Both the position numbers and the translations under genes were made by a program. Of a DNA stretch of 49,326 bases, positions 3,363 through 9,472 are shown piece by piece. Source of the stretch: Promicromonospora kroppenstedtii DSM 19349 (GTDB taxonomy: Bacteria; Actinomycetota; Actinomycetes; Actinomycetales; Cellulomonadaceae); the NCBI RefSeq assembly GCF_000515355.1, contig NZ_KI911565.1, positions 53,226 through 102,551 of the forward strand, given 5' to 3'. The notes below the pieces were generated by a model that was not told the DNA's origin, made no database searches, and saw only the letters and a program-made list of their open reading frames with translations. Every line of letters begins with the position of its first letter. Positions within the stretch are counted from its first letter, which is position 1.

Positions 3363-4888
3363 ACGCGACCCTCCGCCGGCTGTCGACCGTCGTCATGGTG
3401 ATGTTCCTGGCCCTGATGGTGTCGACCACCTGGATCCAGTTCGTCTCGGCGGGGAGCCTGAACGAGAACCCCCGCAACGTGCGCGGCACCTACAGCGCGC
3501 TCTCGCGGGACCGCGGCCCCATCGTGGTCAAGGGCGGCGAGGCGATCGCCACCTCGGTGCCCGTGGAAGACAACTACAAGTACCAGCGCACGTACTCCGA
3601 CGGGGACGCCGGCGCCGCGGCGGTCTACGCACCGCTCACGGGCTACTACTCCGTGGTCGGCACGATCAGCGGCATGGAGCGGTACGCGAACAGCTACCTC
3701 GCGGGCGAGGACGACTCGCTGTGGCTCGACCGCCTGCAGAACCTCATCACCGGTGAGGAGGCGCAGGGGTCCTCGGTCGAGCTGACCATCGACCCCAAGG
3801 TGCAGAAGGCCGCCTGGGACGCCCTCGGCGACTACACCGGTGCGGCGGTCGCGATGGACCCGAAGACGGGCGCCATCCTCGCGATGGTCTCCAAGCCGTC
3901 GTACGACCCGAATCCTCTCGCGTCGCACGACTCAGAGGCGGCCCGGGTCGCCGCGGAGAAGGTCATCAACGACAAGCCACGGGTCAACTCGGTCGGCGGC
4001 GAGGAGCGGTTCAGCCCCTACGGGCCCACCATCAACCGCACGATCAACGCCACCTTCCCGCCCGGCTCGACCTTCAAGCTGCTCACCTCGGCCGCGGCCA
4101 TCGAGTACGACGGGAAGACCCCGGACACCGAGATCCCGGCGCCGAACACCTACACCCTGCCGGGTACCTCCACCGACGTGGCGAACTTCGGTGGCATCCC
4201 GTGCGCGGCCTCGCAGCAGATGACGCTCCTGGAGGCGCTCGAGATCTCCTGCAACACCGCGTTCCTGAACCTGGCCGACGAGGTCGGCAAGGACGGTATG
4301 CAGCGGATGTTCCAGGACTTCGGCTTCACCGACTCGATCGAGGTCCCGATGACCACCTCGGTCGGCGCCTACCCCGGTCTGATCGGCGGCGAGAACGACG
4401 ACGACTCGGACGCGCGCATCGCGCTGTCCGGCATCGGCCAGGGCAGCGTCCGCATGACGCCGCTCCAGGTCGCCATGATCTCGGCGGCCATCGCGAACGA
4501 CGGCGACCTCATGGAGCCGTACCTCATCCAGAGCGTGCGGGACAGCGACCTCGAGCTCGTGAGCCAGACCAAGCCGAGCCGCTACAAGAGCCCGTTCTCG
4601 TCGTCGACGGCGGACGCGCTGACCAAGATGATGGAGGCCGTTGTCAGCAACGGCTCGGGCAAGGGGGCGCAGATCCCCGGTGTCGCGGTGGCCGGCAAGA
4701 CCGGTACCGCGCAGGACGAGCCGCGGTCCCCGTCGCTGTGGTTCACCTCGTTCGCCCCGGCCGACGACCCGCAGGTCGCGGTGGCGGTTGTCCTGGAGAA
4801 CGAGGGCCAGTCCACCAACGAGACCACGGGTGGCGCCCTCGCCAGCCCGATCGCCAAGCAGATCATGCAGGCGGCGATCTCGAAATGA
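3359..4888 (+). CDS. pbpA: Class B penicillin-binding protein PbpA (transpeptidase)
   Basis: A D,D-transpeptidase of 509 residues that cross-links peptidoglycan outside the membrane. An N-terminal signal anchor at about residues 8-28 precedes a dimerisation-type domain and the penicillin-binding domain. All three active-site motifs are present: SxxK as STFK (Ser237-Lys240), SxN as SCN (Ser297-Asn299) and KTG as GKTGTAQ (Lys447). Length and architecture match actinobacterial PbpA, the partner of the SEDS protein encoded just upstream with a four-base overlap. The GTG start overlaps the rodA stop and the final TGA overlaps the ATG of pknA, so the four genes appear translationally coupled. Confidence 0.95.
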   Translation: MNATLRRLSTVVMVMFLALMVSTTWIQFVSAGSLNENPRNVRGTYSALSRDRGPIVVKGGEAIATSVPVEDNYKYQRTYSDGDAGAAAVYAPLTGYYSVVGTISGMERYANSYLAGEDDSLWLDRLQNLITGEEAQGSSVELTIDPKVQKAAWDALGDYTGAAVAMDPKTGAILAMVSKPSYDPNPLASHDSEAARVAAEKVINDKPRVNSVGGEERFSPYGPTINRTINATFPPGSTFKLLTSAAAIEYDGKTPDTEIPAPNTYTLPGTSTDVANFGGIPCAASQQMTLLEALEISCNTAFLNLADEVGKDGMQRMFQDFGFTDSIEVPMTTSVGAYPGLIGGENDDDSDARIALSGIGQGSVRMTPLQVAMISAAIANDGDLMEPYLIQSVRDSDLELVSQTKPSRYKSPFSSSTADALTKMMEAVVSNGSGKGAQIPGVAVAGKTGTAQDEPRSPSLWFTSFAPADDPQVAVAVVLENEGQSTNETTGGALASPIAKQIMQAAISK

Positions 4889-6702
4889 GACCGGTCGAGG
4901 GTCTGTCGCTGGGCGATCGCTACAAGCTGGTGCGGCGCATCGCCATGGGCGGCATGGGCGAGGTCTGGGTGGCGCGCGACGAGAAGCTCGCGCGCGAGAT
5001 CGCCGTGAAGGTGCTCCGCGAGGAGTACACGGGCAACGAGGACTTCCTCCGTCGCCTGCGCACGGAGGCCCGGAACTCGTCGACCCTCGTCCACCCGAAC
5101 ATCGCGCAGATGTTCGACTACGGCGAGGAGAACGGCGCCGGCTACCTCGTCATGGAGCTGGTCCTCGGCGAGCCCCTCGCCGACCTGCTCGAGCGGGAGC
5201 CGGTGCTCCAGCCCGCCCGGCTGCTGCCGATCCTGGCGCAGACGGCGCGCGGGCTGCACGCCGCGCACCTCGCCGGCGTCGTGCACCGCGACGTCAAGCC
5301 GGGCAACATCCTGCTGGAGCACTCCGGTACGGTGAAGATCACCGACTTCGGCGTCTCGGTGGCCCAGAACCAGGTGCCCATGACGGCCACGGGCATGGTC
5401 ATGGGCACGGCGCAGTACCTGTCGCCGGAGCAGGCCGTGGGCCAGTCGGCCACGGGCGCCTCGGACATCTACGCGCTCGGCGTGGTCGCGTACGAGGCGA
5501 CGGCCGGCCGCCGCCCCTTCACCGGCCGGACGCCCGTCGACATCGCGATCGCGCACGTCAACGCGCCGATGCCGCTGCTGCCGACCTCGGTGCACCCCGG
5601 GCTCGCCGAGACCATCACGCAGATGCTGGAGAAGGACCCGGCCCAGCGCATCGCCTCGGCCGACCAGCTCGCGCGGCACCTCGACGTCCTCGCCGCGGAG
5701 ATCGCCGAGGACCCGTTCGGCAGCTCGCGCTACGCGCGCCGGACTCGCCGGGACAACCAGAGCTCCGGTGGGCAGCGCTCCGGCAACGGCCGGTCCTCCG
5801 CTCCGCAGCCCGGCCCCTCGCACGCCCGCGGCCGCCAGACTCCCTTCGGCCCGACCAGCGGCGGGCGGCACACCACCGTGGCCAACGCCCAGTCCGCACC
5901 TCCCCAGCCGGCTCCTGGTCCGGCAGCGCCGCCCAGCACCTACAGCCCGGGCACGCCGGCCGGTGGCTACGGGTCGGGCACGCAGTCGGGCGGCTACGGC
6001 ACGGGTGCCCCTGCGGGCGGCCACGGCTCCGGCCCGTTCGGCTCGGGCTCCTACGGCTCGGACTCGGCCGGGTACGGCACGACGTCCGGCGCCTACGGGA
6101 CCGACGCCTACGGCCGCCCCTACGCGCCAGGTCAGGACGGCGCCGCCACCGGCGGTCCCGGTTCGGGGACGTACGGCACGGACTCCGCCGGGTGGGGCAC
6201 GGACTCCGCGGGCTACGGCACCACGTCGGGCTCCTACGGGTCGGACGCCTACGGCCGCCCGACCACGCCCGGCTACGTACCACCGCCTGCAGCCGCGAAC
6301 GGGGCCGCGCGCTCCTATCCGTCGCGGCGTGACCTGCACTCGACACGCCAGGACGGACGAAGGGTCCCCCAGCAGGGACGCTCGGGAGGGCACCCTGGTA
6401 AGGGACGGCGCAGCCTGTCGTCCGACATCCAGGGCTTTCTCAACAGGATCGAGGATCGTCTGGGGGTGCGCGTGTCCTGGCCGCTGGTCGCGCTCGTCGC
6501 GCTGCTGCTCATCGTCCTCGTCATCACGCTGGTCACCGGGGGCGGCAACGACGGCGCTCTGGGGGAGCCGTGGGGTTCCTCCGAAATCTACGCTGAAACG
6601 CTGAATCCCCCCGCAGCGGCCGGACTGGCCACTTCTGGGATGATGCTCCTCAACGAGTCGTATGCCCTGAGGCCGACGGCCATGACATCAAAGGACCTAT
6701 GA
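4885..6702 (+). CDS. pknA: Ser/Thr protein kinase PknA with Gly/Tyr-rich low-complexity linker
   Basis: A receptor-like Hanks-type kinase of 605 residues. The kinase domain (about 12-272) has a Gly-rich loop (MGGMGEVW), the ATP-anchoring Lys42 in AVKVL, HRDVKPGN (Asp136), DFG (Asp154) and a Thr-bearing activation segment before GTAQYLSPEQ. Residues about 352-464 are an aromatic/Gly/Ser repeat region with many YGT, YGS and GYG units. One helix at about 532-551 spans the membrane and only about 54 residues lie outside, with no PASTA domains, as is usual for PknA. The frame is open far upstream (from 4201), but the ATG at 4885 overlaps the pbpA stop and begins the kinase homology immediately, so it is taken as the start. 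Confidence 0.93.
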   Translation: MRPVEGLSLGDRYKLVRRIAMGGMGEVWVARDEKLAREIAVKVLREEYTGNEDFLRRLRTEARNSSTLVHPNIAQMFDYGEENGAGYLVMELVLGEPLADLLEREPVLQPARLLPILAQTARGLHAAHLAGVVHRDVKPGNILLEHSGTVKITDFGVSVAQNQVPMTATGMVMGTAQYLSPEQAVGQSATGASDIYALGVVAYEATAGRRPFTGRTPVDIAIAHVNAPMPLLPTSVHPGLAETITQMLEKDPAQRIASADQLARHLDVLAAEIAEDPFGSSRYARRTRRDNQSSGGQRSGNGRSSAPQPGPSHARGRQTPFGPTSGGRHTTVANAQSAPPQPAPGPAAPPSTYSPGTPAGGYGSGTQSGGYGTGAPAGGHGSGPFGSGSYGSDSAGYGTTSGAYGTDAYGRPYAPGQDGAATGGPGSGTYGTDSAGWGTDSAGYGTTSGSYGSDAYGRPTTPGYVPPPAAANGAARSYPSRRDLHSTRQDGRRVPQQGRSGGHPGKGRRSLSSDIQGFLNRIEDRLGVRVSWPLVALVALLLIVLVITLVTGGGNDGALGEPWGSSEIYAETLNPPAAAGLATSGMMLLNESYALRPTAMTSKDL

Positions 6703-8730
6703 GTGGTGGAGAACACGCCCCGCGTACTCGCCGGCCGTTATGAGGTCGGCGAGCTCGTCGGCCGTGGCGGCATGGCCGAGGTGCACATCGGCCACGACAC
6801 CCGCCTCGGTCGTACCGTCGCGATCAAGGTGCTCCGTTCCGACCTGGCACGCGACCCGTCGTTCCTCACGCGCTTCCGGCGCGAGGCGCAGTCGGCTGCC
6901 GCGCTGAACCACCCCGCCGTCGTCGCCGTGTACGACACCGGCGAGGACATCCACCAGAACGCCGCCGGCGAGGACGTGCACGTGCCGTTCATCGTCATGG
7001 AGTACGTCGAGGGGCACACCGTCCGCGACATCCTGACGGACGGCGCCGCGGTGCCGATCGAGGAGGCCGTCGAGATCACGGTCGGCGTGCTGAGCGCGCT
7101 GGAGTACTCGCACCACGCGGGCATCGTGCACCGCGACATCAAGCCCGCGAACGTGATGATCACGCCCACGGGCGCGGTCAAGGTGATGGACTTCGGCATC
7201 GCCCGGGCCATGGCCGACTCCGCCGCGACCATGACGCAGACGCACGCCGTGATCGGCACCGCCCAGTACCTCTCGCCCGAGCAGGCCCGCGGCGAGCAGG
7301 TGGACACCCGGTCCGACCTGTACTCCACCGGCTGCATGCTGTTCGAGCTGCTCACAGGGCGCCCGCCGTTCCAGGGCGACTCGCCGGTCGCCGTCGCCTA
7401 CCAGCACGTAGGCCAGGAGCCGCAGCGCCCGTCGGAGGTCGCCACCGACGTCCCCGAGGTGCTCGACCGCATCACCCTCAAGGCCCTCACCAAGGACCGC
7501 GACCACCGGTACAGCACGGCCGCGGAGTTCCGCCGCGACCTGGAGGCCGCGATGCGCGGTGGCCAGGTCACCGCACCCATGGTGGGCGCCGCGATGATGG
7601 GCGCGACCCAGGTAGCGGGCCAGCCCGCCTACGGGGCCACGCAGGTCATGACGCCGGGCCAGGGCAACTGGGGTCAGACGACGGCGCAGCAGAGCCCCGT
7701 CACGCCCGGCAACGGGTACCCGGGCCCGCAGACCCGCAGCGGCCAGCGCGAGCCCGAGAAGAAGAGCAAGGCGCTGATGTGGTGGCTGCTCGGGATCGCC
7801 CTGGCGGCGGTCGCGGCCATCGTCATCGCCATGGTCATCAACGGCGGTGGCGAGGAGGAGCCGACGACGGTCGCGGTGCCCAGCATCGCGGAGGGCATCA
7901 CCGCGGACGAGGCGAAGGCGCAGATCGAGGCCGCGGGCCTGACGTTCCAGCAGGCCATCGACAAGGACTCCGACCTCGACCAGGGCCAGACCACCGGCAA
8001 GACCGACCCTGAGGCCGGCACGGACGTCGAGCCCGACTCGACCGTCACCGTGTACGTGGCGGGCGCCCCGGGGGAGGTCAACATGCCCGCCCTGAAGAAC
8101 CTCTCGGAGAGCGACGCGAGGGCCAAGCTCGAGGAGCTGAACCTCTCGGTCAGCGGCACCGAGACGGAGAACAGCCCGGACGTCAGCCAGGGCCAGGTGA
8201 CCAAGAGCGAGCCGAGCGCGGGTCAGACCGTGCAGGAGGGGTCGGACGTCGTCCTGTACCTCTCGACCGGCAACACCACACTGCCGAACGTGATCGGGCA
8301 GTCCAAGGAAGGCGCCCAGGCGCAGCTCGCCAACCTCGGCCTGGGCACCATCCAGTGGGACACCGAGGAGAGCGACCAGGTGAACCCGGGCACCGTGTCC
8401 CGCACCGACCCCGAGGCCGGCGACGTGAAGCAGGGCACGACCGTGACGGTCTACATCGCGGAGGAGCCGGCGCCCAAGGAGACCACCGTCCCGGCGGACC
8501 TGCTGGGCAAGACGCTCGACGAGGCCCAGGTCGCGTGCACCGGCGTTCAGATCACCTGTGACAAGGCATCGGAGGAACCGTCTGATGTCTTCGCGGCGGG
8601 CCAGGTCATGCGCTCGGACCCGCCCCCCGGTTCCACCGTGGACGTCGGCGCCTACATCAACCTCGTGATCTCGACCGGCCCGGAGGGCGGCGGTCCCCCC
8701 GAGGGCGACGGCGAGGACATCATCCCGTGA
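6703..8730 (+). CDS. pknB: Ser/Thr protein kinase PknB with four PASTA repeats
   Basis: A transmembrane Ser/Thr kinase of 675 residues that senses cell-wall fragments. The kinase domain (about 13-283) shows RGGMAEVH, Lys42 in IAIKVL, HRDIKPAN (Asp145), MDFG (Asp163) and an activation loop with the TMTQT threonines in the position of the two phosphorylated Thr of mycobacterial PknB. A transmembrane helix lies at about 357-379. The outer part holds four PASTA units beginning near residue 388, each with repeated VP/LP...G...A...L and GTVTKTDP-like turns, and ends in a short Gly/Pro-rich tail. PASTA domains bind muropeptides or lipid II. The start is GTG directly after the pknA stop; an ATG overlapping that stop is out of frame. 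A strong terminator follows. Confidence 0.95.
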   Translation: MVENTPRVLAGRYEVGELVGRGGMAEVHIGHDTRLGRTVAIKVLRSDLARDPSFLTRFRREAQSAAALNHPAVVAVYDTGEDIHQNAAGEDVHVPFIVMEYVEGHTVRDILTDGAAVPIEEAVEITVGVLSALEYSHHAGIVHRDIKPANVMITPTGAVKVMDFGIARAMADSAATMTQTHAVIGTAQYLSPEQARGEQVDTRSDLYSTGCMLFELLTGRPPFQGDSPVAVAYQHVGQEPQRPSEVATDVPEVLDRITLKALTKDRDHRYSTAAEFRRDLEAAMRGGQVTAPMVGAAMMGATQVAGQPAYGATQVMTPGQGNWGQTTAQQSPVTPGNGYPGPQTRSGQREPEKKSKALMWWLLGIALAAVAAIVIAMVINGGGEEEPTTVAVPSIAEGITADEAKAQIEAAGLTFQQAIDKDSDLDQGQTTGKTDPEAGTDVEPDSTVTVYVAGAPGEVNMPALKNLSESDARAKLEELNLSVSGTETENSPDVSQGQVTKSEPSAGQTVQEGSDVVLYLSTGNTTLPNVIGQSKEGAQAQLANLGLGTIQWDTEESDQVNPGTVSRTDPEAGDVKQGTTVTVYIAEEPAPKETTVPADLLGKTLDEAQVACTGVQITCDKASEEPSDVFAAGQVMRSDPPPGSTVDVGAYINLVISTGPEGGGPPEGDGEDIIP

Positions 8731-8735
8731 GGCGC

Positions 8736-8767
8736 GCGGCCCTGACCGGACTCCCGGTCAGGGCCGC
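8736..8767. terminator. Bidirectional hairpin between pknB and pabA
   Basis: A perfect 14-bp inverted repeat (8736-8749 with 8754-8767) closes on a 4-base loop. It lies 6 bases after the pknB stop and 22 bases beyond the end of the convergent pabA gene, so it can end both transcripts. There is no long T-run, as is common in high-GC actinobacteria. Confidence 0.8.
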
Positions 8768-8788
8768 TGCACTACCTGGCGTCGCAGG

Positions 8789-9472
8789 TCATGAGGTGAC
8801 CAGCGGCGCCATTCCCTTTGCCCGCTCGACGGCGCCGTCGAGCCCGCACATCTCGAGCCAGTTCGCGAGCAAGCGGTGCCCGCCCTCGGTGAGCACGGAC
8901 TCGGGGTGGAACTGGACGCCGTGCAGCGGCAGCTCGCGGTGCTGCAGGCCCATGACGATGCCCGAGTCCGTGGTGCCGGTGACCTCGAGCTCGGCCGGGA
9001 CGCTGTCCGGCGTCACCGCCAGCGAGTGGTACCGCGTCGCGGTGAACGGCGTGGGCAGGCCGGCGAGCACGCTCGGCTGCGCCAGGTCGCCGTCCGCCGC
9101 GAACACCTGGCTCGTCTTGCCGTGCATGAGCTCGGGCGCGTGCGTGACCTTGCCGCCGAACACCTCGGCCAGCGCCTGGTGGCCGAGGCACACGCCGAGC
9201 ATCGGGGTGCGGGACCGGGCGCACGCGCGGATCACGTCCTCGGAGGCACCGGCCTCCGCCGGCGTCCCCGGCCCCGGTGAGACGAGCACGCCGTCATAGG
9301 GCACGGGCACGCCGTCGTCACCGTCGTACCAGTAGCGGCCGTCGGCGTCGGGTGCGGGCACGGCGTCGTTCCGGACCACCACGGTCCGGGCGCCGATCTG
9401 GTCGAGGTAGCCGACGATCGTGTAGACGAACGAGTCGTAGTTGTCGACGACGAGGATGCGCGTCATGGCCAC
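8789..9472 (-). CDS. pabA: Glutamine amidotransferase, PabA/TrpG type
   Basis: Class I glutamine amidotransferase of 227 residues, the ammonia-donating subunit of aminodeoxychorismate or anthranilate synthase. It begins with the family signature ILVVDNYDSFVY, carries the nucleophile Cys in LGVCLGHQAL and the His/Glu pair in VQFHPES. The gene keeps the place of trpG/pabA next to pknB seen in many actinobacteria. No synthase component I gene is in the window, so the choice between folate and tryptophan synthesis is open; some family members serve both. The frame opens with GTG at 9472, but an ATG two codons later (9466) is an equally good start. It is the last gene of a four-gene operon, 18 bases after the small membrane protein gene. 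Confidence 0.9.
   Translation of the reverse strand: MAMTRILVVDNYDSFVYTIVGYLDQIGARTVVVRNDAVPAPDADGRYWYDGDDGVPVPYDGVLVSPGPGTPAEAGASEDVIRACARSRTPMLGVCLGHQALAEVFGGKVTHAPELMHGKTSQVFAADGDLAQPSVLAGLPTPFTATRYHSLAVTPDSVPAELEVTGTTDSGIVMGLQHRELPLHGVQFHPESVLTEGGHRLLANWLEMCGLDGAVERAKGMAPLVTS

Follow-up and report, generated by a model that had tools for sequence, protein, structure and literature searches.

The pknA locus and its product

The window, that is, the whole 49,326-nucleotide stretch of Promicromonospora kroppenstedtii DSM 19349 DNA analyzed here, lies on contig C2 of a draft assembly (5.8 Mb, 209 contigs, 83% complete), whose nearest relative among the same-genus genomes is P. sukumoe. The start of pknA overlaps the stop of a pbpA-like ORF by 4 bases, and pknA is followed directly by pknB (Table 1). 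The ORFs 5' of pknA are presumably pstP, rodA and pbpA. PknA has the Hanks domain, the single membrane helix and the neighboring PASTA kinase (PknB) that mark PknA of PASTA-kinase operons, and its Pfam matches are to kinase-type families only, with no FHA domain. A linker of ∼250 aa connects the kinase domain to the membrane helix, and in the window protein it has an Arg-Tyr-Arg layout, with an Arg-rich block on either side of a Tyr/Gly tract. The first-pass annotation had described a Gly/Tyr/Ser low-complexity linker between the kinase domain and the membrane helix of an otherwise canonical PknA; this feature (also rich in Thr) is real, and the limits given for it are exact and in frame. Upstream of the window, a 100-N gap (L105, 11127-11226) interrupts a fhaB-like gene, and its flanks are apparently duplicated.

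Table 1. Features of pknA, its linker and the adjoining gene (window coordinates)
Feature	Position	Strand	Basis
pknA (ATG at 4885; 605 aa + stop)	4885..6702	+	Pfam Pkinase (PF00069) E 2.6e-45; orthologues
Hanks-type kinase domain, PknA residues 13-265	4921..5679	+	Pfam PF00069; low dN/dS
N-terminal Arg-rich linker block, residues 284-335 (9 Arg, 0 Tyr)	5734..5889	+	
Tyr/Gly tract, residues 352-464	5938..6276	+	repeats, composition, dN/dS, AF2
27-bp tandem array, GTPAGGYGS-type unit, copy number differing among species	5940..6005	+	DNA repeats; alignment
15-bp tandem array	6023-6065		DNA repeats
Long repeat copy 1, 18-mer core AGYGTTSGAYGTDAYGRP	6067..6120	+	
21-bp tandem array, TDSAG[YW]G-type unit, copy number differing among species	6172..6221	+	DNA repeats; alignment
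Long repeat copy 2, 18-mer core AGYGTTSGSYGSDAYGRP	6208..6261	+	
15-bp tandem array	6225-6254		DNA repeats
C-terminal, pre-membrane Arg-rich linker block, residues 476-529 (12 Arg, 1 Lys, 1 Tyr)	6310..6471	+	
Transmembrane helix, residues 532-551	6478..6537	+	AF2 model; hydropathy maximum
pknB, kinase with 4 PASTA stretches, directly 3' of pknA	6703..8730	+	ORF list; Pfam

Composition of the Tyr/Gly tract

The 113 residues of the tract (G36 T15 S15 Y13 A12 P9 D6 Q2 R2 H1 F1 W1) are 32% Gly, 13% Thr, 13% Ser, 11.5% Tyr, 11% Ala and 8% Pro, with Gly directly after 10 of the 13 Tyr. The cores of the two imperfect long repeats fall within the approximate limits previously proposed for them. When 60-aa segments are screened with an enrichment threshold of 5 Tyr plus 12 Gly, the only six-frame ORFs of at least 80 aa in the window to qualify are the PknA frame (89 segments) and a RodA-like frame (8 segments), and the neighboring PknB has no stretch above it. 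The aromatic residues of the tract are evenly spaced (p ≤0.032 in 13/13 Promicromonospora genomes), but periodic repeats alone could give such spacing, which weakens it as evidence that these residues act as stickers.

FUS-type domains are Gln-rich Ser/Gly/Tyr chains with regularly spaced Tyr, accompanied by Arg-rich segments in the same protein. The PknA linker resembles them in being long, of low complexity and predicted to be disordered, in its Gly/Ser/Thr-rich tract with regularly spaced Tyr, and in its Arg-rich segments. It differs in that the tract is nearly devoid of Gln and contains more Thr, Ala, Pro and Asp, while PknA is membrane-tethered and shows no RNA-binding domain among its Pfam matches. 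The label "FUS-like" used in the first-pass annotation is therefore only partly apt, suiting the Tyr/Gly pattern but not the Gln content (2/113). Of the 13 Tyr, 6 lie in the strict [G/S]Y[G/S] motif, and no chain of the PDB sequence set matched the tract at E 10.

Elsewhere in the Promicromonospora genome, the next match to the tract reaches only E 0.16, and among 10 other kinase loci a frame was read for 8, several of them truncated by gaps or by the ends of the locus, and no stretch exceeded the Tyr/Gly threshold; L007 and L011 yielded no frame. A scan of this genome with a YG pattern gave 7 matches versus 15 for the reversed pattern, showing no enrichment over the control; one match was PknA, two lay in one ORF, and one (C94) was not of low complexity. 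Four other ORFs, on C54, C62, C160 and C169 (L201, L203, L205, L206), were judged by reading of their translations to carry YG-rich tails that precede hydrophobic segments (QYGQAQYGQSQYGQ in L206, for example). The composition of the tract may consequently be generic, which counts against a sticker function.

Translation, selection and predicted disorder

Among the 13 Promicromonospora genomes, variation in the tract is mostly at third codon positions and dN/dS is 0.20, from which it follows that the tract is translated in the pknA frame. Elsewhere in PknA, dN/dS is 0.045 (residues 1-279), 0.30 (N-terminal linker part) and 0.16 (basic pre-membrane part). The tract is under purifying selection, and its codon-position pattern and dN/dS rule out both a wrong frame and unconstrained filler. 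An incomplete assembly in many contigs, with 100-N gaps nearby, might raise the suspicion that the tract is a misread frame, a misassembly or contaminating sequence, but this explanation is refuted by the orthologues, which have the same frame and architecture in 13/13 genomes, and we regard it as vanishingly improbable.

The AF2 model, obtained from a shallow alignment of 26 orthologue rows (mean pLDDT 58), has no secondary structure over PknA residues 291-530, with 10-residue pLDDT means of 32-49, and the linker is accordingly predicted to be disordered.

The 3' end of pknA (6535-6702) has features of its own. Synonymous divergence over codons 557-605 is 0.098, compared with 0.25-0.45 in the rest of the gene, variation is nearly equal over the three codon positions, and this region looks constrained at the nucleotide level. 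The octamer GGGATGAT, at 6637-6644, is present in 56 of the 76 pknA ends of the named loci (versus a mean of 0.06 after shuffling), at a median distance of ∼63 nt upstream of the end of the gene; its codon phase is the same in 56/56, which is compatible with peptide conservation. The element may serve pknB as an internal promoter or a leader. An Rfam search around pknA and pknB (4800-9000) returned one weak match (7794-7842, E 0.38), far below the gathering score.

Distribution within the genus and among named relatives

Named relatives were taken as the best 80 of 175 (79 loci), retrieved with patterns among which were peptides of the tract. The tract is present in 13/13 Promicromonospora genomes, with 7-13 [GSAT]Y[GST] motifs and a whole-linker Tyr content of 4.5-6.4%. 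In the other named loci (Promicromonosporaceae, Cellulomonadaceae and neighbors, 4/69 of them cut by contig ends), the motif count in the linker is 0 for 64/69 and at most 3. Relatives without Tyr/Gly enrichment, which the first-pass annotation had named as evidence against its proposal, are thus found outside the genus, while inside it the enrichment is kept. As it occurs in 13/13 genomes of the genus and in none of the other 69 named loci, the tract is a genus-level trait, and its absence from sister genera indicates that PknA in general does not need it.

A search for the tract in 121 genomes of the family matched 12, of which 11 are Promicromonospora; the twelfth match (30% identity, with an internal stop) is weak and unconvincing. 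Two further Promicromonospora genomes (G006 and G012), not among the matches listed, contain the tract by orthologue comparison. A Tyr-rich PknA linker was not found in the titles and abstract openings of the open-licence papers searched.

Repeat history and substitutions of Tyr

For each copy of the long repeat, the nearest relative is the same copy in another species (24/24 cases, from the 12 species of 13 in which both copies were picked up by the search motif). The long repeats therefore predate the genus and have not been homogenized, and recent slippage alone is ruled out as the cause of their likeness between species. The ancestor of the 13 Promicromonospora genomes already had a Tyr/Gly-rich middle with the long duplication, between two Arg-rich blocks.

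A rival explanation is a passive spacer. On this view, length and disorder are all that the linker requires; it grew in Promicromonospora by tandem duplication, and its Tyr/Gly make-up came along with the founding unit as a side effect and has persisted because an open chain is maintained by Gly, Pro, Ser and polar residues. It is supported by the varying copy number of the short units among Promicromonospora species, and by linker length (234-269 aa in Promicromonospora; the median of the other 142 PknA is 125.5). The selection data speak against it, since dN/dS in the tract is lower than in the adjoining N-terminal part of the linker.

The substitutions of Tyr bear on both sides. In the 13 Tyr columns, Tyr is kept in 149/169 cells, and its replacements amount to 20 parsimony events, 14 of them to His, Phe or Trp and 0 to Cys or Asp. 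Among the events reachable by one base change, 13/15 are to His or Phe (p 1.3e-4 with transitions weighted 2:1, and 0.004 when the chance is taken as 0.5), a bias that speaks against a passive spacer. On the other hand, His is a weak sticker, and events per column number 1.54 for Tyr, 1.13 and 1.30 for Ser/Thr, 0.53 for Gly and 4.1 for Ala; the Tyr columns are no more stable than those of Ser and Thr, hence Tyr is not specially frozen, in keeping with a spacer. From these alignments we read the constraint on aromatic character as moderate, not strong.

PknA linkers elsewhere in the class

The PknA search matched 152 of 296 class genomes at the cut-off. Sixty PknA regions were taken for spread (one from the family of Promicromonospora), with 20 more from family f22 after the first f22 match; FhaA regions were hand-picked, with f10 and f22 over-represented, and the class counts thus come from a non-random sample. 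Families f22 (with genus g64) and f10 are, judging from sequence, presumably Actinoplanes/Micromonosporaceae-like and mycobacterium-like, respectively. Kinase-domain identity is 48-75% among the class matches listed and 96-100% within Promicromonospora, and a PASTA kinase lies 3' of pknA in 56/60 class regions. PknA of the pstP-rodA-pbpA-pknA-pknB operon in other Actinobacteria thus shares the homologous kinase domain and the downstream PASTA kinase, but its linkers are mostly shorter and Tyr-poor.

Among the 60 class linkers a single one stands out, L167 of genus g64, with 6.0% Tyr (the next has 3.5%). The g64 linkers are built of GATGYQP-type heptads, with 4.7-7.0% Tyr in 7/7 complete members (an eighth is cut by a contig end), and aromatic spacing is uneven in 2/7 (p 0.54 and 0.58). 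A kinase-domain tree of 155 PknA includes 21 with Tyr-rich linkers (at least 8 Tyr and at least 4% Tyr); this label requires 3 changes, at least 2 of which are forced by starred branches, and the Tyr-rich PknA linker therefore arose at least twice. Excluded from the tree were 10 rows duplicating named genomes, L001 (pknB) and L002 (pknA) (12 rows together), five rows without a membrane helix (L042, L055, L084, L097, L126) and the cut-off f22 rows L180 and L196. That Tyr-rich PknA linkers originated separately a second time speaks against a passive spacer.

Other PknA linkers contain unrelated tandem repeats, namely GVVRGAEDAVRRE units in L137 (1 Tyr in 139 aa), AERGDP/AERDM units in L169 (0 Tyr in 295 aa) and GGHRDGG units in L161 (3.3% Tyr). 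These indicate that the PknA linker is a recurrent site of repeat expansion, and they favor the spacer. Mean stickiness of the whole linker, estimated with CALVADOS 2 parameters, is higher in all 13 Promicromonospora than in the other 142 of the 155 PknA, while values for the best 100-aa stretch overlap (0.526-0.560 in Promicromonospora, up to 0.536 in others and up to 0.538 in g64).

FhaA linkers and their alternation with PknA

FhaA was recognized by BLAST to the window genome's own ORF, a putative FhaA. In Promicromonospora, FhaA is encoded upstream of pstP and has an 8-aa linker with 0 Tyr in 13/13 genomes, ruling out a Tyr-rich FhaA linker in the same operon. In f10, FhaA linkers contain 29-40 Tyr (10-16%) in 12/12 read (L212-L216, L229, L234-L238, L270), in YGQQPGYDQ- or YPDQGG-like units, and the PknA linkers have 0-3 Tyr in the 10 genomes read. 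The f10 linker is like the Promicromonospora tract in being a Tyr-rich low-complexity segment, here on an FHA protein encoded near pknA; unlike it, it lies on another protein, is built of other units and has more Tyr and Gln. In Gln and Tyr, the f10 FhaA linkers are nearer to FUS than the PknA tract is.

Both linkers could be read in 47 of 50 class genomes. With the cut set at 8 Tyr (our choice), a Tyr-rich linker occurs in FhaA only in 10, in PknA only in 5, in both in 0 and in neither in 32; four members of f22 scored as "neither" have a PknA with 5-7 Tyr. That the two never coincide is an observation and not a statistical result, as it involves ∼3 independent gains in few lineages. This alternation, too, is at odds with a passive spacer.

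A Tyr-rich FhaA linker is presumably also present in M. tuberculosis. M. tuberculosis FhaA is among the most heavily phosphorylated proteins, with 23 phosphosites in a kinase depletion study (PMC7164672), which hints at the FhaA linker as a possible phosphorylation target.

Threonine sites and comparison with StkP and Rv1747

In the juxtamembrane domain of Streptococcus pneumoniae StkP, which is disordered and needed for phosphorylation of most substrates, seven Thr are phosphorylated, 0 of them in the predicted substrate motif, and a phosphomimetic form favors recruitment of division proteins (PMC12077195). PknA likewise has a predicted disordered stretch between its Hanks kinase domain and membrane helix. 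The StkP peptide studied is, by contrast, 75 residues long (270-344), with no Tyr/Gly repeat mentioned in the portion of that paper drawn on here (PMC12077195), and phosphorylation and recruitment were demonstrated there, while the PknA linker is known from sequence and prediction. A second precedent is Rv1747, an actinobacterial membrane protein with a disordered linker that forms condensates tuned by phosphorylation, according to two reviews (PMC9312465, PMC11326607); it differs in that its regulatory module has two FHA domains around the linker, and PknA has none by Pfam.

Another rival explanation is a phosphorylation and docking platform, in which linker Thr (or Tyr) would be autophosphorylated and bind the FHA domains of FhaA and FhaB without condensation, Tyr/Gly merely exposing the sites. 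Thr is frequent in the tract (15 residues), six linker Thr (T330, T331, T399, T406, T446 and T447) are invariant in 13/13 genomes, and the seven StkP phosphothreonines and 23 FhaA phosphosites are in line with such a role. However, no T-x-x-[VILMF] site was found in PknA residues 280-530, and a platform leaves the keeping of aromatic residues unexplained; we consider it rather unlikely. The peptide RHTTVANAQ of the N-terminal linker part (PknA residues 328-336, window 5866-5892) has 8/9 columns invariant in 13/13 genomes and is a candidate autophosphorylation or FHA-docking site.

Proposed function of the PknA linker

Our tentative preference (probability about 40%) is for the PknA linker as a disordered tether whose aromatic residues act as weak stickers, with a passive spacer close behind in likelihood. 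The tether is suggested by the predicted disorder, the dN/dS of the tract, the unhomogenized repeats, the bias of Tyr replacements to His, Phe and Trp, the even spacing and the whole-linker stickiness, and further by the recurrence of Tyr-rich PknA linkers, the alternation with FhaA, and the StkP and Rv1747 precedents. The predicted disordered linker would tether the kinase domain to the membrane, and its evenly spaced Tyr and Arg blocks might act as weak multivalent stickers. These could concentrate PknA locally and keep it close to itself or its partners in zones of growth or division, probably tuned by autophosphorylation of linker Thr. The Promicromonospora PknA linker would then do what the Tyr-rich FhaA linker of f10 may do where PknA lacks one.

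At stake is how PknA, PknB and FhaA gather at growing poles and septa. The occurrence of these segments suggests a signaling module that may gather itself through sticky, floppy segments. A broader proposal, which we hold to be doubtful, is that actinobacterial operons for PASTA kinases and FHA proteins have time and again gained a single Tyr-rich condensing segment per module, on either PknA or FhaA, which would assemble a phosphorylation-tuned cell-wall signaling condensate at growth zones. The main interest of the finding lies in the recurrence of Tyr-rich PknA linkers and the PknA/FhaA alternation. If the proposal is true, the module would need one sticky segment, whichever protein bears it, and harmless soil actinomycetes would offer a clean setting for condensate-type signaling in bacterial growth control.
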